DNA from: Undibacterium piscinae
Lineage (GTDB): Bacteria > Pseudomonadota > Gammaproteobacteria > Burkholderiales > Burkholderiaceae_D
DNA: 64,000 nt
Assembly (NCBI GenBank): GCA_003970805.2
Contig: CP051152.1
Coordinates: 1,178,001 to 1,242,000, forward strand
Reading direction: 5' to 3'
The notes under the pieces were generated by a model. The model saw only the letters and a list, made by a program, of their open reading frames with translations. It was not told the DNA's origin and did not search any database. Positions 12,447 through 47,166 of this stretch are shown in pieces (within the stretch, counting starts at the first letter, position 1; every line of letters begins with the position of its first letter). A program made the translations under genes and the position numbers.

Positions 12447-13398
12447 CACTAGCGGAGGCAAGAAAATTGCCGTGATCGGCGCCGGTTGGGCCGGTTGCAG
12501 CGCTGCAGCTACGTTGGCAAAGCATGGTCATCAAGTGACACTGATAGAGGCGGCACGCACTTTGGGGGGGCGTGCCAGACGCGTAGACCTGCATGACTAC
12601 GCGCTCGATAACGGCCAACATATTTTGCTCGGCGCTTATAGCGCGACACTTGCCCTCATCAAAACACTGGGCATCAACACCAGCACCGCCCTACTGCGCC
12701 TGCCGCTGCAGATGTGCTATCCGGCAAGCGGTAGCGGTAGCGGCATGCACTTTGTCGCCCCCAAACTTCCCGCCCCTCTGCATTTGCTAGTCGCCTTAAT
12801 AAAAGCAAAAGGCCTGGACCGCGAAGACAAGCTATCGCTGGCCAGGTTTTCTACCACCGCGCGCTGGATGGGTTGGCAACTCCATCAGGATTGCAGCGTC
12901 AGCGAACTATTGCAACGTTTTGATCAGACCGAGAAACTTTGCCGGCTGATGTGGATTCCGCTTTGCATCGCCGCCTTGAACACACCGCCGGAAACCGCCT
13001 CGGCACAAGTTTTCCTCAACGTCTTGCGCGACAGCCTGGGCGCCAATCGCACCGCCTCCGACATGTTAATTCCACGCGTGGACTTATCCGGATTACTGCC
13101 GGAGGCTGCAGCCAGCTATATTAGCAACTGGCAGGCAACAGTTCGAGAGCAAGGTATCGTCGGCTTGACCTGCTCCTCGGCACAGAATGACCCCAGAGCA
13201 TATCGCAGGTCATCGGTGGACTACAAGGCGGTTTGCCAATTGCCTAGTTCAGCTGCCAATCGGTTTAGGCGAAGTGCTACCCGCTCATTGCTTTGGTCTA
13301 CGCCTATGGCCGATGAAGTGCATCCTTGCAAGGTTAGTTCAGGGCATTGTCATCACCTTGAAGGCGGCAAACGGAACAGTGCAGCAGCCTCTTTGTAG
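12439..13398 (+). pseudogene. hpnE: hpnE, squalene-associated FAD-dependent desaturase, 3' part lost
   Basis: The first ~230 residues are a clear amine oxidase-fold flavoprotein of the HpnE type. The N-terminal FAD-binding GAGWAGCSAAATL follows the VIG strand, then LGGRARRVDLHDYALDNGQH and the DLSGLLPEAAASYI segment. After about position 13165 the frame runs into sequence that is a noisy antisense copy of the neighbouring Sel1 gene, so the C-terminal ~190 residues, including the second FAD-contact motif, are missing (319 aa against about 420-440 expected). Starts with GTG inside the end of hpnD. The break is either a real inactivation or an assembly error; the noisy tandem repeat here favours the latter. 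Confidence 0.85.
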
Positions 13399-13905
13399 TG
13401 TGCATTACGCCTTCGCACACTTTCATAGAACCGCCCATGCGCTATCACCTGAAGCTAGCGTATTGACCAGCGCAAGCTTGTCTAGCAAAAGGAGGTGCGG
13501 TGCTGACGGTGGGGAAAGCAACGAGCCGCATTCACCGCTGACGCGGATTACTGCCGGAGGCTGCAGCCAGCTATATATCGCTTACTCCTCGTCCCATGGA
13601 GTATTGCAATCCAAGGTGGTAAAGGGCGAATGAATTGCCTAGAGCCAATCGGTTTAGGCGAAGTGCTTCCTCATTGCTTTGGTCTACGCCTTGGCCGATG
13701 AAGTGCATCCTTGCAAGGTTAGTCAGGGCATTGTCATCACCTTGATCGGCGGCAAGACGGAACAGTGCAGCAGCCTCTTTGTAGTCTTGTACTACGCCTT
13801 CGCCACTTTCATACAACCGCCCAAGACTATCCTGAGCTAGCGCATTGCCCTTGTCTGCTGCCTGACGGTAAAGACGAGCTGCTTCCCCGTGATCCTGCGC
13901 TACAC
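13090..13905. repeat. Imperfect tandem repeat joining hpnE to the Sel1 gene
   Basis: A 32-bp stretch of hpnE at 13090-13121 recurs exactly at 13545-13576 (offset 455). The sequence between (about 13165-13545) is a noisy copy of the Sel1 gene 3' region at about 13585-13905. The differences are mostly short insertions in the first copy, together with substitutions. One example is ATCGGTTTAGGCGAAGTGC, present at 13259 and again at 13649, with indels on either side. The first copy spoils the reading frame; the second retains it. Confidence 0.85.
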
Positions 13906-14662
13906 CTAAGCCTCGCTCATACATGGCACCGAGGTAGGCTTGGGCGTCGCTATTGCCTTGAGCTACGGCCAAGCTGAATTGGCGGGCAGCTTCGTTGGCA
14001 TCCATAGATATACCTCTGCCACTTGCGTACATTACACCGAGGTTTTTGTGGGCTTCAGCATGGCCTTGGTTGGCGGCGAGACTGAAGAATCGAGCGGCCT
14101 CCTTATAGTCTTCTATAACTCCATGGCCATTTTCGTACATTGCACCTAGGCTGGTCTGCGCGAAGGCATTGCCTTGATTTGCGGCCAGGCGGTAAAGCCG
14201 AACTGCTTCTTTGTAGTCCTGAGGTACGCCATGCCCATTGGCATATATCACAGCAAGGCCGGTCTGCGCATCCACATAACCTCGATTTGCAAGTGCTTGC
14301 CACTCCTGTATTGCTGTGGCGAAGTCGCCTATCTTGGTTGCTTCCAGACCTTTGGCAAAATCTGCATTTGCTTTGATTTCGTTGCCTGAAATACTTCGGT
14401 CTTCAAGGCGCCAGTAGACGATTGGCACGAAGACAGAAAACGGCAGCAGCAAAAGCAGAAGCAGCCACAAAGTTGACCGCCCTTTCGACCGTAGGTAAAG
14501 AGCGCATGCAGACAAGAGCATCAAAGTACTACACAAGATAGCCCATACAATGCTTCTTCTTTGTCCGTGCTTTGCAAATGCCACTACGACAGCCAGGAGT
14601 GGTAACGACAAGAGCCACAACCCGGCGACAAATTTAGCTTTATTTCGATATTTCTCGATCAC
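13571..14662 (-). CDS. Membrane-anchored Sel1-repeat protein
   Basis: Two to three N-terminal membrane segments (a signal-like helix near residue 15, then Leu-rich helices to about residue 85) are followed by six full Sel1/TPR-like repeats of 36 residues (GxxYxxGxGVxQDYxEAARLYRLAA pattern) and a partial seventh. Sel1 proteins are scaffolds for protein-protein contacts; the partner is unknown. The GTG at 14662 has AGAGAGAG upstream; an in-frame GTG at 14707 has none. The last repeat is irregular: RLALGN lacks two residues, and the end lies exactly at the duplicated junction, so the true C-terminus may be missing. Confidence 0.8.
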   Translation of the reverse strand: MIEKYRNKAKFVAGLWLLSLPLLAVVVAFAKHGQRRSIVWAILCSTLMLLSACALYLRSKGRSTLWLLLLLLLPFSVFVPIVYWRLEDRSISGNEIKANADFAKGLEATKIGDFATAIQEWQALANRGYVDAQTGLAVIYANGHGVPQDYKEAVRLYRLAANQGNAFAQTSLGAMYENGHGVIEDYKEAARFFSLAANQGHAEAHKNLGVMYASGRGISMDANEAARQFSLAVAQGNSDAQAYLGAMYERGLGVAQDHGEAARLYRQAADKGNALAQDSLGRLYESGEGVVQDYKEAAALFRLAADQGDDNALTNLARMHFIGQGVDQSNEEALRLNRLALGNSFALYHLGLQYSMGRGVSDI

Positions 14663-14798
14663 GAAACTCTCTCTTTTGCCATCGGCAGTGTGCGTATAGA
14701 AAAACACTGTGATGTGCGCCGCAGTCGAAGTGCAACTACAATTCCTTTCAATTGGTTAATTACTGATAACCTTACTTAAGGGGCGCGCTGATTCGGCA

Positions 14799-34621: not shown

Positions 34622-34949
34622 GTCGTAATTTTACCTTATCTGAAGCGCAAAAAAAACGCGCCGTGGCCGCTTCGGCCTTGTTTTTCTCCAGACTGCGCGA
34701 ACTCTGAGCCTTGATCACCAACACCCCGGCATTGCTAATACGCTGGTCCGAACAAGCCAGCAAACGCTGTTGATACTCCAGCGGCAAGGAAGAAGCGGCG
34801 ATATCGAAACGCAGATGAATCGCGCATGAGACCTTATTCACGTTTTGCCCACCTGGACCCTGCGCCCGTATCGCATTAAAAGCGATTTCACTGAGGTGTA
34901 TCGCAATGCCTGGGCTAATTTCAAAATATTTGGTGTCTGCACTTTCCAT
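34575..34949 (-). CDS. arfB: Peptide release factor-like protein ArfB, short C-terminus
   Basis: Rescues stalled ribosomes by hydrolysing peptidyl-tRNA. The 124-aa product has the catalytic GGQ in [14 protein letters not shown] near residue 33 and the core through [11 protein letters not shown]. Family members of about 138 aa end in a Lys/Arg-rich tail that enters the empty mRNA channel; here the tail is replaced by a non-basic stretch that runs 47 bp into dnaX. A run of eight T lies where the frame departs: with seven T it would read ARFFALQIR and stop before dnaX, matching the usual helix but still without a basic tail. Function is therefore uncertain. Confidence 0.82.
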
Positions 34950-35007
34950 ACTATTGATTTCTATTTTCTATATTAAAAGCCAGGTAACTGTTCCGCCAAC
35001 GATGAGA

Positions 35008-35165
35008 ACTCCCTCGCCCGCTGGCGGGAGAGGGCCGGGGTGAGGGTGATTGAGCAACACTTGCTTTCAAATTACTGATGCGCTTAGCACTGTGAAGTAT
35101 CAAACATTGTGCTCAATTTGAACCACCCTCATCCCAACCCTTCTCCCGCGAGCGGGGGAAGGGCT
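35008..35165. repeat. Intergenic inverted repeat with GC-rich palindromic arms
   Basis: Two arms of about 46-50 bp face each other (35008-35057 and 35111-35165). Each carries its own palindrome (CCCGCTGGCGGG; CCCGCGAGCGGG) flanked by CCCTC/GAGGG-type sequence and GGTGAGGGTG. The arms are diverged by several indels. This type of element is common between genes in many Proteobacteria and can form large hairpins. Function unknown. Confidence 0.75.
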
Positions 35166-35222
35166 TAGTATAGCGAGCTAAATAGACACCATGACTAGCA
35201 AAAATTTAAAGCACCTGCCCGC

Positions 35223-35283
35223 TTGCGCATATCCCATGCGGGTTTGCGGGCAGATAGGCTGGCAAGCCGCATGGAATATGCGC
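35223..35283. repeat. Dispersed palindromic element, copy 1
   Basis: TTGCGCATATCCCATGCGG pairs with CCGCATGGAATATGCGC across a loop of about 26 nt with one mismatch. The right arm AGCCGCATGGAATATGCG (35265-35282) occurs exactly at 43595-43612 in a second hairpin of the same design. The layout resembles a REP-type or miniature mobile element. Confidence 0.6.
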
Positions 35284-35332
35284 CTCAGCCTATGCCAATT
35301 TAAAATCTAAATTCGTCCTTGCGCAGACTCAT

Positions 35333-37873
35333 TTAGGCTCTCAGCAAGCGCTGCCTCATCTCGGCGGCCGACAAGGGTTTACTGTACAAATAGCCCTGAA
35401 ATTGATCACACTCTTGTGCTTGCAAGAACGCCAGTTGTTGCGCGCTTTCTACTCCTTCTGCGATCACTTTCAGATTCAAACTGCGCGCCATCGCGATGAT
35501 GGCAGCAACGATCGCAGTACCATCCTGAGCGTCACCAATATCCATGACGAACGAGCGATCTATCTTCAAGGTATCGATAGGCAGGCGCTTCAAATAACTC
35601 AAGCTCGAATAGCCGGTTCCGAAATCGTCGATAGAAATCTGCACACCAAGTTGGCTCAATGCGCTCAAGGTGGCGACCACCTCATCGGTATTATTCATCA
35701 GACTGCCCTCGGTAATCTCCAACTCTAGCGCGCTGGCAGTCAGGCCGGTCTCGGCCAGGATGCGCGTGACTGTCTGCAAAATCGAGCTATGGTGTATCTG
35801 TATCGCCGAGAGATTAATCGCTAAATGCGGCAAGCGGTAACCGAGCGAGCGCCACTCTTGTAGCTGGGTACAGGCAGTGCGCAATACCCACTCACCGATC
35901 GCCACGATCAAGCCCGAACTCTCCGCCAGCGGGATAAACTCCACCGGACTGACCAAGCCCAAGACCGGATGCTGCCAGCGCAATAAAACTTCCATAGATT
36001 CTATCTGGCCGCTCTGAACCCCGACGATGGGCTGGAAATTCAAGAAAAATTCATCACGCGCTATGGCATGCCGCAAGTCTGCCGTCATGGCATAGTGGCT
36101 AACCGCTAAGCGACTCATGTCGGCATGGAAGAACATAAAATGATTGCGCCCAGCCGCCTTCACCTGGTACATCGCAGTATCGCTATTTTTGAGTAAAACA
36201 TCGACCTCGCCCCCATCCTGCGGCGACACTGCGATACCGATGCTAGAACCAATGTAGAGCTCACGTTCGCCTATCTTAAAAGGCGTAGATAGAATTAATT
36301 GCAGTTTGCTCGCCAAGGTCGCGGCATTACTAGGGTCCTCAATTTTCGGCATAAAGACGATGAATTCATCGCCGCCCTGGCGCGCCAACACATCATCGGC
36401 ACGCACACAGGAGCGCAGGCGATCCGCCACTTCGATTAATAAAAGATCGCCGACGTCGTGACCGATAGAATCATTGATTGCCTTAAACTGATCTAAGTCG
36501 ATAAACAATACTGCGGTCATGTTCTGTTTAACGCGGGCCAGGTCCAGAGCCTCCTGCATACGTTCACGCAATAGACTGCGATTGGCTAAGTCAGTCAAAG
36601 CATCGTGGGTCGCCATGTGCAGCATCTCTTGCTCAACTTTTTTACGCTCCGTGATATCGATGCGTATCGAGATATAACTGACCACCACGCCATGCGCATC
36701 TTTCATAGGCACGATGGCAGAGTCTACCCAATACAATAGCCCCAACTTACTGCGATTACAAATCACGCCACGCCAGATTTCACCCTGCGCGATAGTTTTC
36801 CACATGTCCGAAAAAAAACTAGCTGGATGCAGACCCGAGTTAAGAATACGGTGATCCTGACCGATCAACTCGTTCGTTTCAAAGCCACTGATCGCGACAA
36901 ACTTGGGGTTAACTTTGAGTATGCGCCCGGCGCTATCTGCCACTGAAACGATGGCATGCTGATCGATTGCCTGCATGTAGGTCGATAGCTCAGAGAACGC
37001 CTGCTCTACCCCTTGCTTGGCAAACAGCAGGGTATTGGCGGTGAGCGCTTCCAGCTCGGATTTCTCTAGCTGAGTTTGGGCATTCTGCAAATATTTAGCT
37101 TGCCGAACGAAGCGCCAGTTGAACCAAAATATGGCTGCAAAACTGCCAAATAAAATCGCAAAAATAAAAATACTGGTGCGATTAATCTGGCTACCTGCCA
37201 ATAGCTCGGTTTTATCAAGGGGAATCGTGATCGACAAGGCACCGAGCAATTGATGTTGCTGCCACTGCTTGCCTATCTGTATTCCTTGGGCACCGCGTAA
37301 CTTTAAAATTTCCGGAGTTTTTTCATACGCGTTATGGCAACTGGCGCACGACATTTGCGAGGCCGGATCGGCCGACAAGTAACGCAATACCCGGCGTCCA
37401 TTTTGTATCTCAAAGCGCGACACCGCTTGCCAATCAATTGCTGCCTTTGGTTGCGCCTGATCCTGCGACTCTAGTTGCGGCCAGGCCCAACGCAAGAAAT
37501 CATCGGCTAAGCCCTGGCTCACTTCCAGGTTCCACTTACTGACGGGTTTGTATTCGTAGAGCTTATCGGCATTGGTCGAGGAAGCCTGCCCCACCAATTT
37601 TAAAAACTGGGCGGGGATAGGCACATGACCAGGCTTATTTGCCGAATCAACGCTAGGACCAAAACCATCCTGAAGAAGTTTACCGACGATCTCGTGGGCA
37701 TACACCGAGCGTGCCGTGGTGGCCTGACTTGCCACAATTTTTGCGATAGTTAAGGCCTGATGTTCTATGGTGCGATTAACTGCCTGGCGCACCACCAGAT
37801 AGCCCAGCACACAGGCCAAACTAAACACGGCAATTAAAACCACAAAGGATCGCGAACTACGACGAAGACGCAT
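35333..37873 (-). CDS. Heme-type sensor diguanylate cyclase/phosphodiesterase (DUF3365-PAS-GGDEF-EAL)
   Basis: Predicted c-di-GMP enzyme of 846 aa. An N-terminal TM (residues 10-32) is followed by a periplasmic Tll0287-like/DUF3365 domain with a c-type heme site (CASCH near residue 176), and a second TM near residue 240. Then come a coiled stretch, a PAS domain (VADSAGRILKVNPKFVAISG), a GGDEF domain with intact GGDEF and an EAL domain whose signature reads EVLLRW with downstream DDFGTGYSSL. Both catalytic domains look competent. The heme suggests redox or gas sensing. It stands alone, with repeats downstream. Confidence 0.93.
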   Translation of the reverse strand: MRLRRSSRSFVVLIAVFSLACVLGYLVVRQAVNRTIEHQALTIAKIVASQATTARSVYAHEIVGKLLQDGFGPSVDSANKPGHVPIPAQFLKLVGQASSTNADKLYEYKPVSKWNLEVSQGLADDFLRWAWPQLESQDQAQPKAAIDWQAVSRFEIQNGRRVLRYLSADPASQMSCASCHNAYEKTPEILKLRGAQGIQIGKQWQQHQLLGALSITIPLDKTELLAGSQINRTSIFIFAILFGSFAAIFWFNWRFVRQAKYLQNAQTQLEKSELEALTANTLLFAKQGVEQAFSELSTYMQAIDQHAIVSVADSAGRILKVNPKFVAISGFETNELIGQDHRILNSGLHPASFFSDMWKTIAQGEIWRGVICNRSKLGLLYWVDSAIVPMKDAHGVVVSYISIRIDITERKKVEQEMLHMATHDALTDLANRSLLRERMQEALDLARVKQNMTAVLFIDLDQFKAINDSIGHDVGDLLLIEVADRLRSCVRADDVLARQGGDEFIVFMPKIEDPSNAATLASKLQLILSTPFKIGERELYIGSSIGIAVSPQDGGEVDVLLKNSDTAMYQVKAAGRNHFMFFHADMSRLAVSHYAMTADLRHAIARDEFFLNFQPIVGVQSGQIESMEVLLRWQHPVLGLVSPVEFIPLAESSGLIVAIGEWVLRTACTQLQEWRSLGYRLPHLAINLSAIQIHHSSILQTVTRILAETGLTASALELEITEGSLMNNTDEVVATLSALSQLGVQISIDDFGTGYSSLSYLKRLPIDTLKIDRSFVMDIGDAQDGTAIVAAIIAMARSLNLKVIAEGVESAQQLAFLQAQECDQFQGYLYSKPLSAAEMRQRLLRA

Positions 37874-37986
37874 ACTCTCTACCTAATAAATTCTGTCAAT
37901 TTTCTAGCGTTTAAACCCTGCACTTGTAAGCTAAGGCGACTAAGGCGAGGTCTAGACACCAATACTGAAGCTGCTTTGTATATGTC

Positions 37987-39453
37987 TTAAGGATAAAGCC
38001 TGCGCAAGATCTGCGACATACTGCTCAGCAGCTGCGCAGCCAAGCGCTGTTGCAGTTGACTACGCTCAAGCTGCTCAGGCGCACTGCGCGCCGACTGCCA
38101 GAGCGCCACAAAGTCCGGCTTGTTTTCGTTCAGCACCGCCTCTACCTCGGCTTGCCAAAACGAGGGTGCTTCACCCTCGGCGAAATTACCACGCCCACGG
38201 CCGAAATGCGCCACCGCCAGATAGCGCAGTAGCGCTGCGACTAACAGCGAATGTAAAAACTCATCTGAAAAGCGCAGCTGTGGATGCTTTCTATCGGTAC
38301 TGGCATTAAAGGCCCAGGCCGCACCGGCAAAACTGAGCGCACCGAGAATACCACCAACTAAGGCCCCAGCACCAAAACTTAAGCCGCCCGCCATCAAATC
38401 AGCAGACACCCCAGTGGCAGCACCGGATAACATAGCGCCGAGTAAGCCCGCCTGTTTAGCATCCAAGGGCGCGCGCACCACATACTGCTGATGCACGCGC
38501 TGATTAATTTTATGCGCGGCACCAGCATCTAGCCTATGCAGTTTGAGCAAATCAGCGGTGCTGGCGAGCACATTCTCGTTAAGCCGTAACATGAGTTGCT
38601 GCAGCGCTTGATCATGGCGTTTTTGCTCGCGCTGCTTACCCATGCCTATCACCTTCAAGACCGTGCTTAACATCGCCGTCTCTTCTGGCGCTAGCGCTTC
38701 CACATCTTGCGCAGCCCTGATCAATTGCAGCGCTATCAATTCCATCGCTGCCTGCAAGCGCTGCTCATTATCGCGCTGCCAGAGCGCAAACAGGCTGGCA
38801 TAAGCCAATTTTTTATGGTCAGGTAGCAACTCGGCTAAGGCATCGTAAAACACGCGCTCATGCACCCAGCAGCGCGCAAAAGCATCCAGCGCCAGCACTT
38901 TCTGAACCACCGGATACGCCGCCAGATAGCTCTGCCAGCGTTGTAACTCGGCCAATTCTTCCTGCGGCGGCCGCGGCGGCCCCATTTGATTGAGCAAAAC
39001 GATGACCGGCTTACCTAACCATTGGAGTATCGCCATCTCAGGCGCCAGATAGCCAGCATCCTGCGGATCCTCCGATGAATTGACCAGATACAGCACCACA
39101 TCGGCGGTTTCGCGCGCAGTTCTCAGCGCCTGCTGGCTCAGCCAAAAAGTGCGGTCGCGATAGCGATCCAGGACTTCGCGCAAAAACCAACCGATAGGAT
39201 TATCCGCCATGCCCAAACGCTTAGATAGACGCACCGTATCACCAAAACCTGGCGTATCCCAGAGCAGCAATTGATCTCCGCCAGCGTTCTGCAACAAAAT
39301 ATGCGATTCGGAAAAACTGGTTACGTGCGGAGCATCCCGCACCTCGCCCACATCGAGCCCGGTCAGAGTTCTGGCCAGCGTGGTTTTACCGGCATTGGTG
39401 TGCGAAATCAGCGCAATTTGTATCTGCAAAGGAGTACTCGTGGTGGTCGGCAT
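37987..39453 (-). CDS. DUF3482 domain GTPase
   Basis: 488-aa TRAFAC-class GTPase. G1 is SHTNAGKTTLART near residue 17, G3 DTPGFGDTVRL near residue 65, G4 NQMG near residue 155. The C-terminal half contains DUF3482 with a glycine-rich hydrophobic hairpin near residue 345 (GGLSFGAGALVGGILGAL), suggesting membrane association. It follows the DUF2868 gene by 44 bp on the same strand, the usual pairing in Betaproteobacteria and Pseudomonas. Biological role unknown. Confidence 0.9.
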   Translation of the reverse strand: MPTTTSTPLQIQIALISHTNAGKTTLARTLTGLDVGEVRDAPHVTSFSESHILLQNAGGDQLLLWDTPGFGDTVRLSKRLGMADNPIGWFLREVLDRYRDRTFWLSQQALRTARETADVVLYLVNSSEDPQDAGYLAPEMAILQWLGKPVIVLLNQMGPPRPPQEELAELQRWQSYLAAYPVVQKVLALDAFARCWVHERVFYDALAELLPDHKKLAYASLFALWQRDNEQRLQAAMELIALQLIRAAQDVEALAPEETAMLSTVLKVIGMGKQREQKRHDQALQQLMLRLNENVLASTADLLKLHRLDAGAAHKINQRVHQQYVVRAPLDAKQAGLLGAMLSGAATGVSADLMAGGLSFGAGALVGGILGALSFAGAAWAFNASTDRKHPQLRFSDEFLHSLLVAALLRYLAVAHFGRGRGNFAEGEAPSFWQAEVEAVLNENKPDFVALWQSARSAPEQLERSQLQQRLAAQLLSSMSQILRRLYP

Positions 39454-39497
39454 AAGGAGATTATTCTGAGGTCAAAGTGGCGCGCAAAGTGCCGCGA

Positions 39498-41024
39498 TCA
39501 GGCTGCTAAGCCAGCAGCGCCAGGCCAGCCGCGCCCGATATCATCGCTACTTTTCTGCAGCTCGCGTAGATTGAGCACCATGCAAGCGGCCTGCTGAGTG
39601 GCACAAAATTGCCGCCATAGGGCGATACGTTCATGCAGACGTTGCTCAGCTCCGGCTTGCGCACCTAGCCGTTCCAGATAAGCCGATTGGTCCACTAACA
39701 CTAGCACACGGGCGAGCTGATCAGACGCTGGCCGCGGACCCGCCTGCAAGAAAGAGTTTAAAAATTCAGCATGATTCTCTGGCTCTGGCGTCGCGCTAAG
39801 ATTAAATAAAACGATCGTCAATCCTGCGCTGCCTTTATCTGACACGTCCAGTTTCGAGGCAGCATGCAATTGCACGCCATAGCCGGTTGAGGGCCGCAAC
39901 ATCACATTCACCTGCTCACCGAGCAAGCTGTGCGCCACCGCCCTTAGAATTTTTTCACGGCCCTCATCGAGGGTAAAGCCATAAGGAAAAATTCTTAGCA
40001 GCGGCACCTGCGCAGGGCCAATTTTTGCAGTCAGTGTTTGAAAGTAAGGCTGCGCCAGATTCAAACTGAAATGTTTGCCCAACCAGCGTTCCCGCGCATA
40101 CCCCAGCAAAGCGAGTAGCGTTCTTGGAATAATCACCAGCAATAAGAGCGTACTGGCATATAAATGCACCCACAAAGCACCGTAGCCGCTGGTGTCGGTG
40201 TGTGGTATTTGCAGTGGTGCTAGTTGCAGCGCCTGCACTTGCGCCAGCGAAAACCCCGGCATAGAAAAGAGCTGCTGCACCGGCATAAACAACATCGACA
40301 AAATCGCATGTAGCTGCGCCGCATTGAGGAAAGTACTCTCCCATCCGGCCACATACTGTGACAGCATGCCACGCAGATATAAAGACGCAATCACGCCCAG
40401 CGAAAAACTGGCGGCGCTGAGATGGATGATGCGACTGGCGCGGGCGCTCAGCAGCGGGCCGCTCAGCACTAACCACTCCGCATTAAATTTAGTCAGGGCG
40501 CTAGCCAGAACCACAGGCGTAGCACGCGGCAATTGCGGCGATGCGGCCAGTGCAAAAACCGCGCCACGCTTAAGCGCATCCCAGGGAGTACGCCCCAACT
40601 GAGGAAAAACCATCTGCACTAGTAACAACAGATAGACCACTAAATTCCACAAAATAATCAGCAGCAAAGGCGCCGCTAACAAATCGACTCTATGGGTGTC
40701 GCCCATCCGGTCGAGTAAGCCACCGCACAAAAAAGCCAGCAAAGGTAAGCCCCAGCCTAGCCCTGCCAAGCGACTCTTACCCGCCACCAAGCGCGCCAGA
40801 CCGGCATGACGTTCAATCAGTTTTTTTAAAATTTGCTCGGCCCGCGCTTGCAGAAACAACTCAGAGCTAAGCGCCACCTGCTTCTCGGCCGCCGCCCATT
40901 GCGCCAACTCATGCGCACTACGACTGGCGTAGCGTCTATCATCCTCGCTTAGAATCTGGCGCTCCGCGTCCGCATTCTCTATCGCCTGCACCAACACTAT
41001 GTTTCGGAAAAACGACTGATTCAT
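39498..41024 (-). CDS. DUF2868 domain membrane protein
   Basis: 508-aa protein with an alpha-helical N-terminal domain, about four TM helices (near residues 95, 130, 205 and 310 of this start) and a cytoplasmic C-terminal domain. The DUF2868 family is nearly always next to a DUF3482 GTPase, as here, which suggests a membrane receptor or effector controlled by GTP; this is inference. The Met at 41024 is preceded by AGGAG; the longer frame to 41057 is not supported. Confidence 0.88.
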   Translation of the reverse strand: MNQSFFRNIVLVQAIENADAERQILSEDDRRYASRSAHELAQWAAAEKQVALSSELFLQARAEQILKKLIERHAGLARLVAGKSRLAGLGWGLPLLAFLCGGLLDRMGDTHRVDLLAAPLLLIILWNLVVYLLLLVQMVFPQLGRTPWDALKRGAVFALAASPQLPRATPVVLASALTKFNAEWLVLSGPLLSARASRIIHLSAASFSLGVIASLYLRGMLSQYVAGWESTFLNAAQLHAILSMLFMPVQQLFSMPGFSLAQVQALQLAPLQIPHTDTSGYGALWVHLYASTLLLLVIIPRTLLALLGYARERWLGKHFSLNLAQPYFQTLTAKIGPAQVPLLRIFPYGFTLDEGREKILRAVAHSLLGEQVNVMLRPSTGYGVQLHAASKLDVSDKGSAGLTIVLFNLSATPEPENHAEFLNSFLQAGPRPASDQLARVLVLVDQSAYLERLGAQAGAEQRLHERIALWRQFCATQQAACMVLNLRELQKSSDDIGRGWPGAAGLAA

Positions 41025-41477
41025 GAAGCTCCTGATTGATCTGCGGACCACACGCAAGAAAGAAAAATAGATAAGAGCACATTATAACGCGATAGATTTG
41101 ATGCAAAAAGACAAAGAAACGACAAAGAAACGACTAGGAGATAAGTTTCTCCCTTTATCTCGCTTTAACAATCATCTCATCAAGTTCAACAACAAAAAAC
41201 CGCTATGCGCAGATTGTGCGAACCAGCTGGGGCGGATAAAACACGCTGCGATCAGATGCGACAGCTCCCGTCAAAGCGCTAAGTTTTAGCGTGGCCTGAC
41301 GATACACCGTCGCTGAGTAGCCCTTTGAGATTAAGCAAATAGAGGGAGTATTTTTAGAAGCCCGCATCCGGTATGCGCGAACCACCATGAATTCTCTGGT
41401 ACTGGCAGGAGTATAACTGAGCAGCGCAGGCCAGTGGCTTAGCGCGCGGGGCGGCGGTTTGCGTTGGCGCTTTGAAT
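41025..41477. other. Region without a recognised gene before the cassette array
   Basis: 453 bp. A tandem 11-bp repeat (GACAAAGAAAC twice, 41110-41131) and a small GAGATAA/TTATCTC-type hairpin near 41140 are visible. Open frames here have no support. The expected attC of the last cassette (after the gene ending at 41478) is not recognisable, so the array may be broken here. Confidence 0.4.
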
Positions 41478-41969
41478 TTAGCCACCGTCGGAACTGCGCC
41501 TCTGCAATGACTGCTTAGGGTACTGGCGCCACCGCCAAACCCCATAGAAAACCAGTGCACCCACTACGCCATGCAGCGCAAAGAGCGCCACTCCCTCTGC
41601 ATAGGTGAACCACGCATAAGCAGTCGGCACACCATCAACATAAGTTTCGATGTACTTGCCATGCCAGTTCTGCCCGGCCGAGTAGCCATCAAGACGACTA
41701 GGCCAAGAGGTCGCAGCGGATAAGGCACCAAGCACAAAACCGACTATGCCAAGTGAACGCCAACTATCGCGACGAAGTTTTCGCAGCGCCAAAAATGCAG
41801 GAACACCAAGTACTAGTACTAGCGTCGCACTGACAGCCACCACCGCGAACAGCACGAAGCCAATACCGTAATGCGACTGGGGAGACGAGAGATAGTCGGG
41901 CAACATGCGCAAGAGAAGCAACATGGGCTGAGCAGCCACCGCTGCGATTGCAGAAATCCAGATGTTCAT
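41478..41969 (-). CDS. Cassette gene: four-helix membrane protein, unknown
   Basis: 163-aa protein from the Met at 41969, with about four hydrophobic helices (residues ~1-22, 35-60, 73-93 and 123-145) and a hydrophilic loop with Trp and Tyr residues. The frame extends upstream to 42044 but that part translates the attC site (NPSIKRDALRRPSCQ), a well-known artefact. No family recognised. It is the last cassette of the array in the direction of transcription. Confidence 0.7.
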   Translation of the reverse strand: MNIWISAIAAVAAQPMLLLLRMLPDYLSSPQSHYGIGFVLFAVVAVSATLVLVLGVPAFLALRKLRRDSWRSLGIVGFVLGALSAATSWPSRLDGYSAGQNWHGKYIETYVDGVPTAYAWFTYAEGVALFALHGVVGALVFYGVWRWRQYPKQSLQRRSSDGG

Positions 41970-41972
41970 GTG

Positions 41973-42030
41973 GGTTAACGTTTGACATGATGGGCGCCGC
42001 AAGGCGTCCCGCTTGATGGATGGGTTAGGT
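41973..42030 (-). other. attC site 1 (58 bp)
   Basis: On the minus strand it runs from ACCTAAC (R'') to GTTAACC (R'). The inner parts GGGACGCC and GGCGCCC face each other across TTGC, giving a short-tip attC. The TAA of the DUF4160 gene lies inside R'' (42025-42027). Confidence 0.8.
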
Positions 42031-42456
42031 GCCCTGATAAGCACCTACCGAACAATTTGTTGGTCTTGTTGAATTCCATATTTCAATTAGAAGAGGTTTT
42101 GCATGTTTGTGCCAATACTCTATTTTCTTTTTATCTCTGCCCTCAATTTCACCCTTTAACAAATTGCAATTTTCAATATTAAAACTGGCATCAATGTTTG
42201 GCGACTTTACATGAAAGTGCGGTGGTGGGTGTTCATCTGGGTAAATTTCTATTTTAAGTCCATTTACTTTAGCTACAAGCTGCTTAATTTCAATTAGAAA
42301 CATTTCTCCATTTTCTTCCCATACATTGCATGGGTTATGAAGAATTGCCTCTAGCCAAGCAGCAAAATCATCAAATGATTTTAATTGCTCAGGTTCGACA
42401 TTATGAAACCAAGGTGTTTTTTTTAATTCTTCAACTGACATTTCGGAGAATTTCAT
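42025..42456 (-). CDS. Cassette gene: DUF4160 domain protein
   Basis: 143-aa protein. The C-terminal part has the DUF4160 signature IYPDEHPPPHFHVKS followed by GEIEGRDKKKIEYWHKH. DUF4160 proteins are small and often sit beside toxin-antitoxin-like or cassette genes; no function is proven. The N-terminal ~55 residues are an acidic helical extension (FSEMSVEELKKTPWFHNVEP). The ATG at 42456 is preferred over a GTG at 42465 that falls inside the preceding attC. AT-rich compared with flanking genes, a sign of separate origin. Confidence 0.8.
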   Translation of the reverse strand: MKFSEMSVEELKKTPWFHNVEPEQLKSFDDFAAWLEAILHNPCNVWEENGEMFLIEIKQLVAKVNGLKIEIYPDEHPPPHFHVKSPNIDASFNIENCNLLKGEIEGRDKKKIEYWHKHAKPLLIEIWNSTRPTNCSVGAYQGT

Positions 42457-42463
42457 AAATTGC

Positions 42464-42532
42464 ACCTAACGTTTGAGATGAGAGGCGGCGCCCGGCTTGC
42501 CGGGTGACGTCCTCTCGATTGAAGGGTTAGGC
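42464..42532 (-). other. attC site 2 (69 bp)
   Basis: On the minus strand it runs from GCCTAAC (R'') to GTTAGGT (R'). GAGAGGACG pairs with CCTCTC across the tip, which holds a further CCCGGC/GCCGGG hairpin. The DUF1801 gene stop TAA lies inside R'' (42527-42529). Confidence 0.88.
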
Positions 42533-42931
42533 CTCAGATTTCGCATGAGTACTTTGCGCGGCAATTGCATTTTTTAGCAGAGCCAAAACTGAAGGTGAGG
42601 CGACCTGCGCGAGGGTACTGATTTTGACGTGACGAAGGGATTTGCCAGTTCCTTCAAGGAGTACTGCGGGATCGGAAAGCGAGGTTCCGCGGTAGAAGCC
42701 CAAATTTGTGTGCTTCGCTTGGATGCCTATATATGCATAGTGATCAAGCATCTTTCGAGGACCAAAGCCGTAGCTGACGATGCCTTGCTTTGGCCAAGCA
42801 AGCATGTAGGCACCTGGGTGCACGCTTAGGATTTTCTGATGAAGCGCCTCGACTATTGGGCGTTGCTCTTCGGAAGCAAGTGCGAACACGGCTTCAAAGG
42901 AACTAAGCGTTGGATTTTTTGAGGCAGCCAT
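42527..42931 (-). CDS. Cassette gene: DUF1801 domain protein
   Basis: 134-aa protein of the DUF1801 (YdhG-like) fold. Segments typical of the family are PGAYMLAWPKQGIVSYGFGPRKM, of which YGFGPRKML and AYIGIQAKHTNLGFYRG are visible, then GTGKSLRHVKI. Members are small proteins of unknown biochemistry; some bind iron or copper compounds, which is not shown here. Start ATG at 42931 lies 9 bp after the preceding attC. Confidence 0.85.
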   Translation of the reverse strand: MAASKNPTLSSFEAVFALASEEQRPIVEALHQKILSVHPGAYMLAWPKQGIVSYGFGPRKMLDHYAYIGIQAKHTNLGFYRGTSLSDPAVLLEGTGKSLRHVKISTLAQVASPSVLALLKNAIAAQSTHAKSEA

Positions 42932-42939
42932 TTTCTGAG

Positions 42940-43029
42940 GCCTAACGCCGAAATGACGAGATCGCCACGACGGTCATAAATTTATGCGAAATAGTCATTG
43001 GCGATTCTCCGTCGATTGACCTGTTAAGG
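42940..43029 (-). other. attC site 3 (90 bp)
   Basis: On the minus strand it begins CCTTAAC (one departure from RYYYAAC) and ends with a perfect GTTAGGC. GACGGAGAATCGCCA and TGGCGATCTCGTC pair with an extra base in one arm, the usual extrahelical feature. The longer tip contains ATTTCGCATAAATTTATGACCG. The zinc-ribbon gene stop (TAG, 43030-43032) abuts it. Confidence 0.75.
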
Positions 43030-43338
43030 CTAGTCCTCGGATTCATCTTTAACCTGAATGCTTCCATAGGTGTCCACCAATAAGAATAATAATGCAAAAA
43101 ATACAGCTCCACTGATGGATATGCGTAGAACAAAACCAGGCCACCAATCTGTACCAGCAACGCCATACACAAATGGATAAATAATAAAATCTGCGAAAGT
43201 TGAGAGCACAAACGCACAAATAAATAGACCAGTTGTTTTACATTTCAAAGCAACGGAGCAGGAACTACAAACAAAATTTTCGCTAACCTTCAGCGCATTA
43301 ATACGTACCCCGCACTTGGGACATGCAAGTGACATCAT
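43030..43338 (-). CDS. Cassette gene: zinc-ribbon membrane protein
   Basis: 102-aa protein with an N-terminal zinc ribbon (CPKCG ... CSSC, residues 6-28) and three hydrophobic helices (about 36-60, 68-88, overlapping the C-terminal third), ending in an acidic tail. Two adjacent ATG codons at 43338 and 43335 are possible starts. Similar small ribbon-membrane proteins are frequent in cassette arrays, but no function is known. AT-rich. Confidence 0.7.
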   Translation of the reverse strand: MMSLACPKCGVRINALKVSENFVCSSCSVALKCKTTGLFICAFVLSTFADFIIYPFVYGVAGTDWWPGFVLRISISGAVFFALLFLLVDTYGSIQVKDESED

Positions 43339-43551
43339 GAGCCTTAACGTGTTTTAATTTTCATTTTGCAATATTAACCGAGCGTGTTAAAAAAGACAAT
43401 TTGTTTCAAGTACCTTGAAACCCGCGTGGATATTGACTAAATCTGGTTATACTGACTATTTATACAGTTGAACAAAATCGACAAAAACATCACTTTAACG
43501 CAGCAAGGTGCGATCGTAGCTTTGCATGAAATCTCAAAAGCATCCTGCCAC

Positions 43552-43617
43552 TTACGCATATTACAATGCGATTCTTCAAGCACACTGGCCTGCGAGCCGC
43601 ATGGAATATGCGTAATG
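43552..43617. repeat. Dispersed palindromic element, copy 2
   Basis: TTACGCATATT...ATGCG pairs with CGCATGGAATATGCGTAA across a loop of about 25 nt. The right arm 43595-43612 is identical to 35265-35282, and the preceding GGC...GCGAGCC is similar too, so both hairpins belong to one family. Confidence 0.6.
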
Positions 43618-43661
43618 CGGCAGCCTGTTTTTGGTTTGCTATTGCCTGGTTTTATTCCATT

Positions 43662-44285
43662 TCTGTCGTGCAATGTGCGATTGCCGACCGGGGTAAACGC
43701 CCGGTAGCTACTTCCTTTTCTTGCTTCGCCAAGAAAAGGAAGCAAAAGAAGGCACGCAAAAGTCGCTGCCCTTCGGGTGCCCCAATTATGCAGGGAAAAA
43801 TGGGGAACGAAGCAAAACTCGCTACGCTCAGACAGCTTAATTCCTGTCATTTTCTGCCAAGCACAATTGGCAGCGCCACATGGAAAAAAACGAAAGTCAA
43901 CACATCCGTAGGTGCGACTTCCGTCACTTGCGCAGGCAACATCACAGCACTTCGAACTACGACAATCTACTTGCTTTTTGACCTGGGTTTTGAATTGGGT
44001 TTTGAAATTGGGTTTTGAATCTGCTTTTGACGTTGGCTTTTTGAAATTTCGAATTTTCGCATGTGGGCGCTGCGCCTTGTGCTGGGCAGAAAATGGATCA
44101 GGAATGAAGCTTGTCTGAAGCGAAGCGAGTTTGCTTCGTTCCCCATTTTTTGACTTGCACAGGCGGGCACCCGAAGGGCAGCCGACCTTTGCGTCGCCTT
44201 CTTTTGCTTACTCTCTTGGCGAAGCAAGAAAAGTAAGTAGCTGTCCCGGTCCTACCACCGGCCCGGCAATCGCAAACAACGACAG
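43662..44285. repeat. Large imperfect inverted repeat with ~220-bp arms
   Basis: The left arm 43662-43883 and the reverse complement of the right arm 44060-44285 align along their whole length with small indels. Shared blocks include TTCTTGCTTCGCCAAGA, GCAAAAGAAGG, GCTGCCCTTCGGGTGCC and AATGGGGAACGAAGCAAA. The ~175-bp centre has three near-copies of GGGTTTTGAATT. Open frames in it are shadows of the repeat. Translations of this kind (YFSCFAKR...) recur in Burkholderiales genomes, so it is probably a dispersed repeat present here as two inverted copies (recollection, not searched). Confidence 0.8.
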
Positions 44286-44387
44286 AAGCGAAAACACCTG
44301 CACGCCAGAAAAATGCAAGGGACAGGTATCGAGAATGCAAGGGCGATACTGAGTCACGGCCCTATTTCACGTCCCTATCTTAAGCCC

Positions 44388-45338
44388 CTATTGTGAGATT
44401 AGCTTCGCGACCTCGATTGCTGGCAATACGCCCGCATATTGGGGAATGCCGTTTTTATCGAGCTTGGCGACGTGGATCTTCCACTCCATTTTTTTATCCT
44501 TATCCACCATCAATTCCAGCGCCCAACCCGTCTGTGAATCTTCCGTGTGAAAGCCATTGAATATGAAATTTCCCAGACTGTAAAATATCGGCTTGTTTTG
44601 GTAGATCTCGATATTTTGCGTCACATGCGGGTGACCGCCAACAACCGCGTCTGCGCCCGCCTCTATCATCAAATGAGCCAATTGAATCTGACGTGGTGAG
44701 GCCATTTTTTCATGCTCCCAACCCCAATGCGGATAGACAATCACAATATCGGCCTTATGCGTAGTCTTGGCGGCACGAATATCAAACACGATCTGATCAT
44801 CATCGGCCCACGCCACGCCTGGCCGGTCTTCCAAGGCTTCAAAGCTACGAGGAAAAAAATCATCATAGGCCAAAATAGCAATGCGCACGCCCTTAACTTC
44901 GCTCACATAAGGCGCATGCGCAGCACGGACATCGCGCCCTCCGCCAAAATAAGGAATCCCTTTTTTCTCTAACAAATCCATCATCTTGCCAAAGGCAGCA
45001 GGACCATAATCACCAGTGTGATTATTCGCCAAGGACACCGCATTAAAATGCTGCTTGATGGTCGATAACACGCGCGGATGCGCCTGAAAGGTAAACGGTT
45101 TTGTTTCGCGTTTGCCGGTATTACCGACGCTGCATTCCAAATTACCGAAACGCAGATCAGCTTGCGAAAACTGGGCCTCAAACGCCGCAAAAGGGTTTTT
45201 GCCTTGTTTAATGAGCTGCCCTGGCAACTCATCGACCATCAGATCGCCGACAAATAACAGCTTGACAGCGGTCTGCTGGGCATGCGCGGAAGCGGCAAAA
45301 ATAAGTGCCGCGATGAACGCAAAATAAGACTTATTCAT
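44388..45338 (-). CDS. CapA family metallophosphatase-like protein
   Basis: Secreted member of the CapA/PgsA poly-gamma-glutamate family with a calcineurin-like metal-binding fold. The 316-aa protein has a signal peptide ending SAHA-QQ and metal-site motifs VGDLMVDE, FGNLECSVG, SLANNHTGDYG, PHWGWEHE and VGGHPHVTQ, all in order. True PGA synthesis needs capB/capC, which are absent, so the role is probably another cell-envelope phosphoesterase function. The ATG at 45338 follows AGGAG and overlaps the upstream gene's stop by 4 bp. Confidence 0.92.
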   Translation of the reverse strand: MNKSYFAFIAALIFAASAHAQQTAVKLLFVGDLMVDELPGQLIKQGKNPFAAFEAQFSQADLRFGNLECSVGNTGKRETKPFTFQAHPRVLSTIKQHFNAVSLANNHTGDYGPAAFGKMMDLLEKKGIPYFGGGRDVRAAHAPYVSEVKGVRIAILAYDDFFPRSFEALEDRPGVAWADDDQIVFDIRAAKTTHKADIVIVYPHWGWEHEKMASPRQIQLAHLMIEAGADAVVGGHPHVTQNIEIYQNKPIFYSLGNFIFNGFHTEDSQTGWALELMVDKDKKMEWKIHVAKLDKNGIPQYAGVLPAIEVAKLISQ

Positions 45339-45745
45339 TTTTGCTCCTTGTCTGCGCAAACTGGTGTGCATTGAAATAGTAACTCTCGTTCGAATTTTGC
45401 CGAGTAAATACGATGGAGCCCAAAGCCCTGTGCATGACTGGCGCAGACATTCTCTTGAATAATATTTTCGCTTAAATGTATCAACACATAACGCTCTTTT
45501 GATTCGTGATACACATAGGTTTTGAATTTATTTTCATTCGCAAGATATTGCATAGAAAAGCGATAACCGCCATCCAAATCAAGCGTCTTGTAGACGTAAG
45601 GATCAGCACTCTTGGCCACTTGCAGTGTATTGACAGTACCCGACACTTTAATCTCACAACGCAGCTCAACCGCAGAGGCAGAAGTAGTGGCAAGGCTAGC
45701 GAAAAAAAGGCCGACTAGTCCCATGATCCAAATTATTTTATGCAT
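45335..45745 (-). CDS. Small secreted protein of unknown function
   Basis: 136-aa protein with a signal peptide (MHKIIWIMGLVGLFFASLATTSASA) given here by its start MHKIIWIMG and cleavage after SASA. The mature part is beta-rich with four Cys (RCEI, NVCAS, QCTPVC) that could form disulfides. It overlaps capA by 4 bp and is upstream of it, so the two are translationally coupled and probably act together in the envelope. The longer frame to 45859 adds a non-homologous hydrophobic stretch and has no ribosome site. No family recognised. Confidence 0.75.
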   Translation of the reverse strand: MHKIIWIMGLVGLFFASLATTSASAVELRCEIKVSGTVNTLQVAKSADPYVYKTLDLDGGYRFSMQYLANENKFKTYVYHESKERYVLIHLSENIIQENVCASHAQGFGLHRIYSAKFERELLFQCTPVCADKEQK

Positions 45746-45954
45746 AAAAGTCCGGTAAAAAATGAAAATGACAAAAATCGTCTTGTCGTTGATTGCATAT
45801 GCCCCCGCCATGATAGCGGCAGAAGCAATTCTGGAGACGAATTTATTATTTAAATACAATAGTATTGAAAAGTATTGAACAACGCAGCAGAGAGCAAGGT
45901 CTTCATCATGATTTGCGACGATTCAACATAAAAGCGGTACGTGCTAAGTAAGTA

Positions 45955-47166
45955 GCCGCCGCTCTACCAGTTGCCAGCAATGGCACAGCAACGTAAGCGT
46001 CCAACAGATCCGTCTAGCATTTATTCCTAAAGCGCATTAACAAGGCAGCGGTAGCAGTTCATCAATCCGGCTGTTTGGATGCGTCGGTAATTTTTCGAGT
46101 GTGCCTTTAAGCCATGCCAAAGGTTCTATGCCATTGGCTTTCGCGGTGGCGAGCAGGCTTTGAATGGCGGCAGCTTGTCGGCCTGCTCGTTCAGAACCGG
46201 CGAAGAGCCAGTTCTTTTTGCCAATGGCAATAGGGCGAATGGCGTTTTCAATCGGATTATTGTCGATTGGCAGATGACCGCTATTGGCGTAGCGTTCAAT
46301 CGCGCTCCAGCGTTTGAGGCTGTAGTCGATGGCTTTGGCGAGACTGCTGCCATCGGCGCTCTGTTGGCGTGTGTGAATCAGCCAGGCATGCATCGCTTTG
46401 AGTTCTGGCAGCGCCTGTGTAGCACGTCGTTGTTGTCGTTGTTCGATACTGTCGCCTTTACCCTCGGCCTCAATGTGATACAGCTTTGCAATGCGTGTAA
46501 GTGCCTCATTGGCAATCGGATGCCCATTGGCGGCGTGCAGGTCGAAGAATTTGCGACGGGCGTGCGCCAGGCAGGCCAGTTCGGTGATGCCCAGCGCGAA
46601 CAGGGCTTTGTAGCCGGCATAATCATCCACCATAAGATGGCCTTGCCAATGCCGCAGAAACGCGCGCGCATGACTGCCACTGCGTCCGGTTTGGAAATCG
46701 AACACGATGATGGCAGGCTGGTCTTCTAAGGCATTGCTGCGATATGCCCATAGATAGGCACGCTTGGTCTTACCATTGCCGGGGTCGAGCAGCGGCACCG
46801 GGGTTTCATCGGCATGCAGCACTCGTCCTTGCTTGAGTATTTCTGCCAACCGGTCACTGAGCGGTTGCAGGGCGACGCCAATCCGTCCTACCCACTCGGC
46901 CAGTGTGGAGCGGGCAATGCCAACACCGTGTCGACTGCTGATTTGCTCAATCCGATACAGTGGTAAGTGATCGAGATATTTTTGAATTACCACCCATGCC
47001 AATAATCCTGGTGCCGCCAGACTACGATCGATCACTGCCGGGGGAATGGCTGCTGCGGTGACTGTCTCACAAGCGCGACAGGCGTATTGAGGGCGAATAT
47101 GCCGATGCACAAAGAAGCGTGCTGGTTCGACGTCGAGTTGTTCACTGATGTCTTCACCGCATTGAG
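45955..47166 (-). mobile_element. IS66-family element remnant
   Basis: Only the 3' two-thirds of tnpC and about 80 bp of downstream sequence, including TTGGACGCTTACG typical of IS66 ends, remain. tnpA, tnpB and the tnpC 5' part are missing, and the left boundary coincides with the relA stop codon. The right boundary is approximate. Confidence 0.7.
46037..47110 (-). CDS. IS66 family transposase TnpC, N-terminally truncated
   Basis: 357-aa fragment of a DDE transposase (full length about 510-530 aa). The catalytic parts are present: HADETPVPLLDPG (first Asp), MVDDYAGYKALF (second Asp), and the C-terminal LPIDNNPIENAIRPIAIGKKNWLF with the Glu, then LPTHPNSRIDELLP. The Zn-finger region just upstream is still encoded in the same frame to about 47160 (CGEDISEQLDVEPARFF), where the sequence abruptly becomes relA. 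Lacking its N-terminus and TnpA/TnpB, it is probably inactive. Confidence 0.92.
   Translation of the reverse strand: MHRHIRPQYACRACETVTAAAIPPAVIDRSLAAPGLLAWVVIQKYLDHLPLYRIEQISSRHGVGIARSTLAEWVGRIGVALQPLSDRLAEILKQGRVLHADETPVPLLDPGNGKTKRAYLWAYRSNALEDQPAIIVFDFQTGRSGSHARAFLRHWQGHLMVDDYAGYKALFALGITELACLAHARRKFFDLHAANGHPIANEALTRIAKLYHIEAEGKGDSIEQRQQRRATQALPELKAMHAWLIHTRQQSADGSSLAKAIDYSLKRWSAIERYANSGHLPIDNNPIENAIRPIAIGKKNWLFAGSERAGRQAAAIQSLLATAKANGIEPLAWLKGTLEKLPTHPNSRIDELLPLPC

Follow-up and report, generated by a model that had tools for sequence, protein, structure and literature searches.

Probable integron cassette array with a retained attI leader and without an integrase gene in Undibacterium piscinae

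We analyzed a 64,000-nucleotide stretch (the window) of the Undibacterium piscinae genome, a single contig of 4.19 Mb (CP051152.1, positions 1,178,001 to 1,242,000, or G000:C1:1178001-1242000 in our numbering). A preliminary description, made from the sequence alone, had reported an integrase-less array of four integron cassettes in it. In window coordinates and on the minus strand, the array has a 146-bp attI leader at its head (43348..43493), followed by three complete cassettes (A, B and C) and a gene, D, that lacks an attC site. The four small minus-strand genes described before are all present as open reading frames (ORFs). Three of the four proposed cassettes are complete, but no attC lies behind the fourth gene, and the retained attI had been overlooked.

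Cassette A (42946..43347) encodes a zinc-ribbon, probably membrane protein (ORF 43030-43338) and carries an attC at its end. Cassette B (42470..42945) encodes a DUF1801 protein (ORF 42527-42931) and cassette C (41979..42469) a DUF4160 protein (ORF 42025-42465). D (41478..41978) begins with a cassette start and encodes a protein of 163 amino acids.

attC sites, cassette boundaries and the attI leader

Three hand-written attC scanners missed sites, and covariance models were used in their place. The first model (R1) was trained on 8 cropped sites taken from the integrase gene (intI) loci of other genus members. Because it missed the attC of cassette A, a second model (R2) was built from 27 sites, located with R1, in 11 fetched intI loci of other genus genomes. 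The window was never included in the training of either model. R2 matched at exactly the places where three attC-like palindromes had been described, and all three matches are on the bottom strand, in one orientation. They are the attC of cassette A (90 nt, 42940-43029; 29.8 bits, E 3.4e-5), of cassette B (69 nt, 42464-42532; 47.9 bits, E 1.2e-9) and of cassette C (58 nt, 41973-42030; 30.8 bits, E 1.9e-5). R1 scored the attC of B at 37.4 bits (E 8.5e-8) and that of C at 20.7 bits (E 0.0031), with no match at E 10 for that of A. The fourth-best R2 match in the 64 kb reached 16.4 bits (E 0.067), behind the three attC. An absence of covariance matches had been named as the main observation that could overturn the array, and the three matches leave it standing.

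The ends RYYYAAC/GTTRRRY, ascribed to every site, are found in strict form at 42464-42532 and in part at the other two. As described, two genes, those for the DUF1801 and DUF4160 proteins, have their stop codon inside an R'' box. The fit to R2, with its bulged positions, agrees with what is expected of an attC: a bottom-strand hairpin with extrahelical bases and R and L boxes. The bottom strand is more stable than the top strand in all three sites, clearly so in one (-19.5 vs -13.6 kcal/mol). A search of the window with Rfam at gathering thresholds returned no attC family, its sole match being a distant tRNA. At E <= 5, two eukaryotic miRNA models matched within 40900-44500, at a cluster of repeats; both were far below their gathering scores and were rejected.

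The first bases of a captured cassette (TTRRRY, after the crossover) are complementary to the R'' at its own end, because the two adjoined in the circle. Counting the G, this complementarity runs over 9 nt in A, 13 nt in B and 9 nt in C; it is 4-6 nt when an R'' is set against the start of another cassette, including that of D. Such pairing of each start with its own R'' is the mark that capture circle by circle would leave. For D, the expected R'' (GGGTTAAC) has no match anywhere in the window on the minus strand, on which it would be required; its two matches are on the plus strand, and one of them is D's own start read backwards. A covariance search of 40000-45000 with filters off gave no match for an attC of D at E <= 10 in 40000-41972. 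Relatives of the D protein (38 proteins at E <= 1e-3 including itself, 112-184 amino acids) are mostly of D's length. The gene therefore appears whole and its attC lost.

The leader ends at the crossover G (43348) and is homologous to the spacers between intI and attI of two complete integrons in the genus. It is 75% identical over 155 nt to the spacer of L021, the intI locus of genome G036 (E 6.8e-25 in a small set and E 3.3e-22 in a whole-genome search), and 75% identical over 151 nt to that of L026, the intI locus of G018. In L021 and L026 the intI ATG lies 33 nt before the part of the gene matched by the hidden Markov model (HMM), about 16 nt inside the leader. The far edge of the leader is about 17 bp before the HMM-matched part, and homology stops beyond 43493. 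The leader thus spans attI, the intI promoter region and approximately the first six intI codons, of which the residues DKNIT are readable in the window. At 43452..43467 on the minus strand it contains a LexA-like palindrome, CTGTATAAATAGTCAG, of the CTG-N9/10-CAG type, a motif present in 12 of 20 aligned leaders. It differs at one of the last four letters from the LexA consensus CTGT-N8-ACAG. One promoter-like match, a candidate for the cassette promoter Pc, was found in the leader at 43390-43363 (9 of 12 positions). Upstream of the leader there are some tens of base pairs and then the repeat cluster.

Several observations weigh against an integron array. The smaller model, R1, missed one of the three attC (42940-43029). 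Two of the three sites each have one non-canonical core box, R'' being CCTTAAC at 42940-43029 and R' being GTTAACC at 41973-42030. In two sites the bottom strand is barely ahead of the top strand (-11.6 vs -10.6 and -7.7 vs -7.1 kcal/mol). A promoter scan of the region gave 4 promoter-like sites against a shuffle mean of 4.3, which is no excess. The core boxes that depart from the strict consensus and the site missed by R1 are also what could be expected of chance palindromes between unrelated small genes. However, E values of 1.2e-9 to 3.4e-5 at three consecutive places and in one orientation, together with the complementarity within each cassette, make coincidence hardly credible.

Insertion of the array at a genomic site other than attI (an attG site) has precedent, since cassettes can enter attG sites (PMC12901181) and Xanthomonas genomes often carry integrase-less attC clusters outside the integron locus (PMC12444791). 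The sequence 5' of the first cassette is, however, a 146-bp homologue of attI leaders and not an unrelated GTT, so that we consider this origin very improbable. The homology of the leader to intI-attI spacers therefore points to an integron without intI rather than to cassettes dropped at a random site. We conclude, with a probability of roughly 0.88, that these genes form an integron cassette array which has kept its attI but has no integrase.

Integrase genes and attI leaders across the genus

The search of the genome for intI suggested in the preliminary description was carried out with TIGR02249 (integrase cut-off 265 bits). None of the seven matches in the 4.19 Mb exceeded the cut-off, the best having 82.5 bits. 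Matches under the cut-off were likewise found in 14 of 14 control genomes, none of them above it. Within the genus, intI was found over the cut-off in 12 of 43 genomes (16 matches in total). At the window locus, tblastn and a nucleotide comparison detected no intI remnant beyond the first codons.

The term CALIN (IntegronFinder 2.0, PMC9024848) denotes clustered attC sites with no integron integrase. The array has three R2-matched attC within 1.06 kb and no adjoining intI, of which approximately the first six codons are all that remains. It shares with complete integrons an attI at its head, identified by sequence homology, with cassette A beginning at the G|TT of the leader, and attC cassettes in a single orientation, as seen from the three attC and the boundaries. 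Unlike a complete integron, it has no intI gene, by the TIGR02249 search neither here nor elsewhere in its genome. The earlier reading as a CALIN or a remnant of a chromosomal integron is in line with attC found by a model trained elsewhere and with the lack of an intI over the cut-off. Since it still has its attI and an integrase-promoter region that contains the LexA-like box, the array goes beyond a bare CALIN and is best described, from sequence comparison, as a CALIN-like integron remnant.

Under this reading, an integron integrase would have captured circular cassettes in succession at the crossover G of attI (43348), and A would therefore be the newest insertion and D the oldest. The attC of D would have been lost after capture. 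The intI gene would have been lost past approximately its sixth codon, with attI, the promoter region and the LexA-like box kept in the leader. The array is probably static at present, and attI and the three attC look usable by an integrase acting in trans.

Between the window and another genome of the genus, G014, most aligned stretches are 74-90% identical, but 35000-43499 and 44500-46999 are 100% identical in 500-bp bins. The identical block (34669-47159 of the window, approximately 325.5-338.0 kb of G014:C1) ends at an IS66 transposase gene (46037-47110). Unless one of the two assemblies contains contaminating sequence, the array thus appears to have passed from one species to another very recently. 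The repeat cluster with inverted repeats at 43500-44499 is 82-91% identical to G014, although both of its sides are 100% identical. Its region (43490-44390) has 78 matches in its own genome, which suggests that the divergence came from conversion between repeat copies.

We searched for leaders of this kind with R3, a profile built from the sequences of 20 leaders alone; as one of the 20 is the G014 copy, which is identical to that of the window, the match of R3 to the window is not independent. At E <= 1e-5 it found 143 leader copies, spread over 27 of the 42 genus genomes with a maximum of 16 in one genome, and 17 of these 27 genomes have no intI over the cut-off. In the family, leaders were found in 21 of 195 genomes and 6 of 44 genera. 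Leaders of at least 50 bits, plus a weaker group on G032:C14, were followed up (76 sources). One duplicate was dropped (the first match of L203 is L129), giving 91 examined leaders, a set that leaves out the intI-bearing leader of G029:C80 (84.6 bits). The idea that leaders are a miniature inverted-repeat transposable element (MITE) with two fixed ends was not supported, as the crossover edge is common to them but the upstream sequences fall into many groups. One locus, L162 (G001:C28:217500-230000), has four tandem attI leaders, each followed by its own gene or genes (by eye methyltransferase-like, oxidase-like and others), with one attC detected, after the last leader.

The position of attC next to the leaders was counted for 77 of the 91, those with 1.5 kb on both sides (14 were dropped). 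A correctly oriented attC (R2, E <= 0.5) lies within 1.5 kb downstream of 41 of the 77, and an attC of any orientation lies upstream of 7. With the strand flipped the downstream count is 0 of 77, and at places and strands drawn at random within the same loci it averages 10.8 (maximum 21 in 1000 draws). Among leaders of at least 85 bits with enough room, 18 of 22 have a downstream attC and none an upstream one. After exclusion of 5 of 47 leaders without a terminal GTT, the leader end matches the R'' of the downstream attC by at least 6 nt in 29 of 42 (shuffled pairings: mean 6.2, maximum 14). The placement of attC and this pairing argue that leaders of this kind are used attI sites. With 7 leaders shorter than 120 nt excluded, 29 of 84 leaders have their nearest relative in their own genome, where shuffling gave a mean of 4.0 and a maximum of 15, and leaders therefore also seem to multiply within genomes. 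The window leader itself clusters with three copies in G014.

Two histories could have left the window leader without its integrase. In the first, to which we give about even odds, a complete integron at this place filled its own attI and later lost intI. The homology of the leader up to about the sixth intI codon agrees with such decay, and losses of intI are known in Xanthomonas and Treponema (PMC12444791, PMC3607928). We looked for intI beside other leaders in two ways. A tblastn search with five IntI queries (E <= 1e-3, within 1.3 kb of the leader) found two complete intI, five pieces and 15 cases of none among 22 strong leaders (at least 85 bits), and nothing at 55 weaker ones. This count was too low, as a more sensitive nucleotide comparison revealed, in which intI homology was counted if it exceeded all 200 shuffles. 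It gave 2 complete intI, 18 pieces and 71 cases with none detected among the 91 leaders, two of the 20 homologies being alignments of just 14 nt. Homology to intI beyond the leader was present at 14 of 25 leaders of at least 85 bits (the kind to which that of the window belongs, and the class with both complete genes), at 3 of 37 of 60-85 bits and at 3 of 29 below that. Decay in place is, by these alignments, common for leaders like that of the window, and most other leaders have no detected intI. The lack of any detected intI remnant past the first codons at this locus tells against decay here. In addition, a leader at this place was seen just in the window and in G014, with the same cassettes, and no intI-bearing ancestor at this place was seen.

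The second history, somewhat less probable in our judgment, is that a leader already lacking a functional intI reached this place, as one of many such sites in the genus, and took up cassettes through an integrase whose gene lay elsewhere in the genome and has since been lost. It accords with the number of leaders per genome, with the 17 of 27 leader-bearing genomes lacking intI over the cut-off, with the absence of an intI piece past the leader in 71 of 91 cases and with the same-genome relatives, including the clustering of the window leader with G014 copies. The frequent intI pieces beside strong leaders speak for the first history instead.

Leaders at the same chromosomal place also bear on the second history. 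Leaders group by their upstream flanks, and in four groups (L160/L161/L172, L162/L172, L124/L127 and L126/L152) the flanks are 78-96% identical between genomes and the leaders, kept to their end, 82-92%. The first 300 bases past the leader are 60-69% identical in the same groups (gapped), against 63% in random pairs (5-95% range 58-68%). L124/L127 and L126/L152 carry intI pieces. In L160/L161/L172 and L161/L162/L172 no intI was detected and the leader adjoins the same flank in each genome, yet the sequence past the crossover differs. If their common ancestors already lacked intI, the later cassettes would have arrived in trans, and several orphan attI sites indeed seem to have been filled in this way. 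The evidence is not uniform, however. L133/L159 and L174/L179 are leader pairs from different genomes that kept the same cassette, the window's own leader shows no cassette exchange, and 36 of the 77 leaders have no detected attC in 1.5 kb, those below 60 bits faring worst (7 of 26 with one).

Cassette cargo and other arrays in the genome

Of the cargo families proposed earlier, DUF4160 is clearly upheld (PF13711, 44.4 bits, cut-off 23) and DUF1801 just passes (PF08818, 28.4 bits, cut-off 27.2), but the zinc ribbon of cassette A stays below the Pfam cut-off, and its membrane helices were judged by eye. A search with the cassette A protein returned two proteins, an identical copy and one that is 63% identical. 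For cassette B, a search of genome contigs returned three distant relatives. Relatives of D are named in Ideonella, Undibacterium (64% identity) and Lysobacter.

Cassette C has 251 related proteins at E <= 1e-3, most relatives having 143 amino acids and thus beginning at the fourth residue of the ORF. The best 120 of the 251 are 56-96% identical, many of them on contigs of 1-2 kb and some named Kangiella, Thioalkalivibrio or Pseudidiomarina. By these matches the DUF4160 gene is spread widely but patchily, as cassette genes are. The structure model of its protein (mean pLDDT 79.9) matched nothing in the PDB at E <= 0.001, the best E being 0.21, and a profile search gave a single match with E 0.081. 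The suggestion that the cargo might include defense or toxin genes found weak backing: PADLOC returned one non-significant match (HEC-08, 11 bits, E 0.041), and cassette C scored 37.6 bits against the DhiT toxin (NF048015), far under the cut-off of 100.

In the whole genome, R2 gave nine attC matches at E <= 0.05. Further attC-like sites lie at G000:C1 positions 1130013, 1616140, 2490014, 2914928-2915322, 3070853 and 3981402, all within L097-L101 except 2490014. The array at 2.915 Mb has a different attI-like head, which was compared with four leaders linked to intI and in each case outscored all 300 shuffles; for the array at 1.130 Mb the comparison is borderline. The window also contains, at 13238-14788, the remnant of a second array with a Sel1-repeat gene (13571-14707), 98.8% identical to a G014 gene that lies behind an attC and an attI leader. 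This remnant has neither the leader nor the first cassette, and its gene region seems to be partly duplicated.

Comparison with known integrons

Integrons typically have one attI beside the integrase (PMC9024848). We tentatively propose a distributed integron for members of this genus and of some related ones, in which many orphan attI leaders, fixed at separate chromosomal places, would each be fed in trans by an integrase that is encoded at one site or transiently present. The window array would then be one of the peripheral ports and would have travelled from species to species as part of a chromosomal block. The proposal has somewhat less than an even chance of being right. If one integrase does serve up to 16 attI ports per genome, capture and perhaps expression of cassettes could take place at many sites simultaneously, some of the arrays filed as CALIN debris may be working ports, and software that does not seek attI beyond class 1 would overlook this. 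Where different species have a port at one and the same chromosomal position, a clean comparative test of trans activity is at hand.

Outside class 1, attI sites are poorly described and are not detected by IntegronFinder (PMC9024848), and heads like that of the window would therefore go unseen. In the part of the attI literature searched, from which most subscription papers were missing, no description of dispersed attI leaders was found, and a separate search yielded no paper on integron cassettes and attI in Oxalobacteraceae. Arrays without an integrase or at other loci are already known, as is the loss of intI (PMC9024848, PMC12444791, PMC3607928), and within the literature covered the dispersed attI is what appears new.

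Compared with a CALIN as defined in PMC9024848, the window array keeps attI and the integrase-promoter region. It resembles the inactivated integrons of Xanthomonas (PMC12444791) and Treponema phagedenis (PMC3607928), in which intI is lost or truncated and attC cassettes stay. Arrays occur at other chromosomal loci in Xanthomonas as well. However, intI is reported there at one locus, ilvD, with few exceptions, and Treponema has one attI per integron, whereas the attI leader described here is multicopy, with up to 16 copies per genome. The presence of attI away from the integrase, within cassette arrays, recalls the Delta-attI-type cassettes of class 1 and 2 integrons (PMC12901181). Those are, in the material consulted, mostly short attI remnants that replace attC at the 3' end of a cassette. 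Here, by contrast, a leader of up to approximately 146 bp precedes the cassettes, at separate loci and sometimes in tandem.

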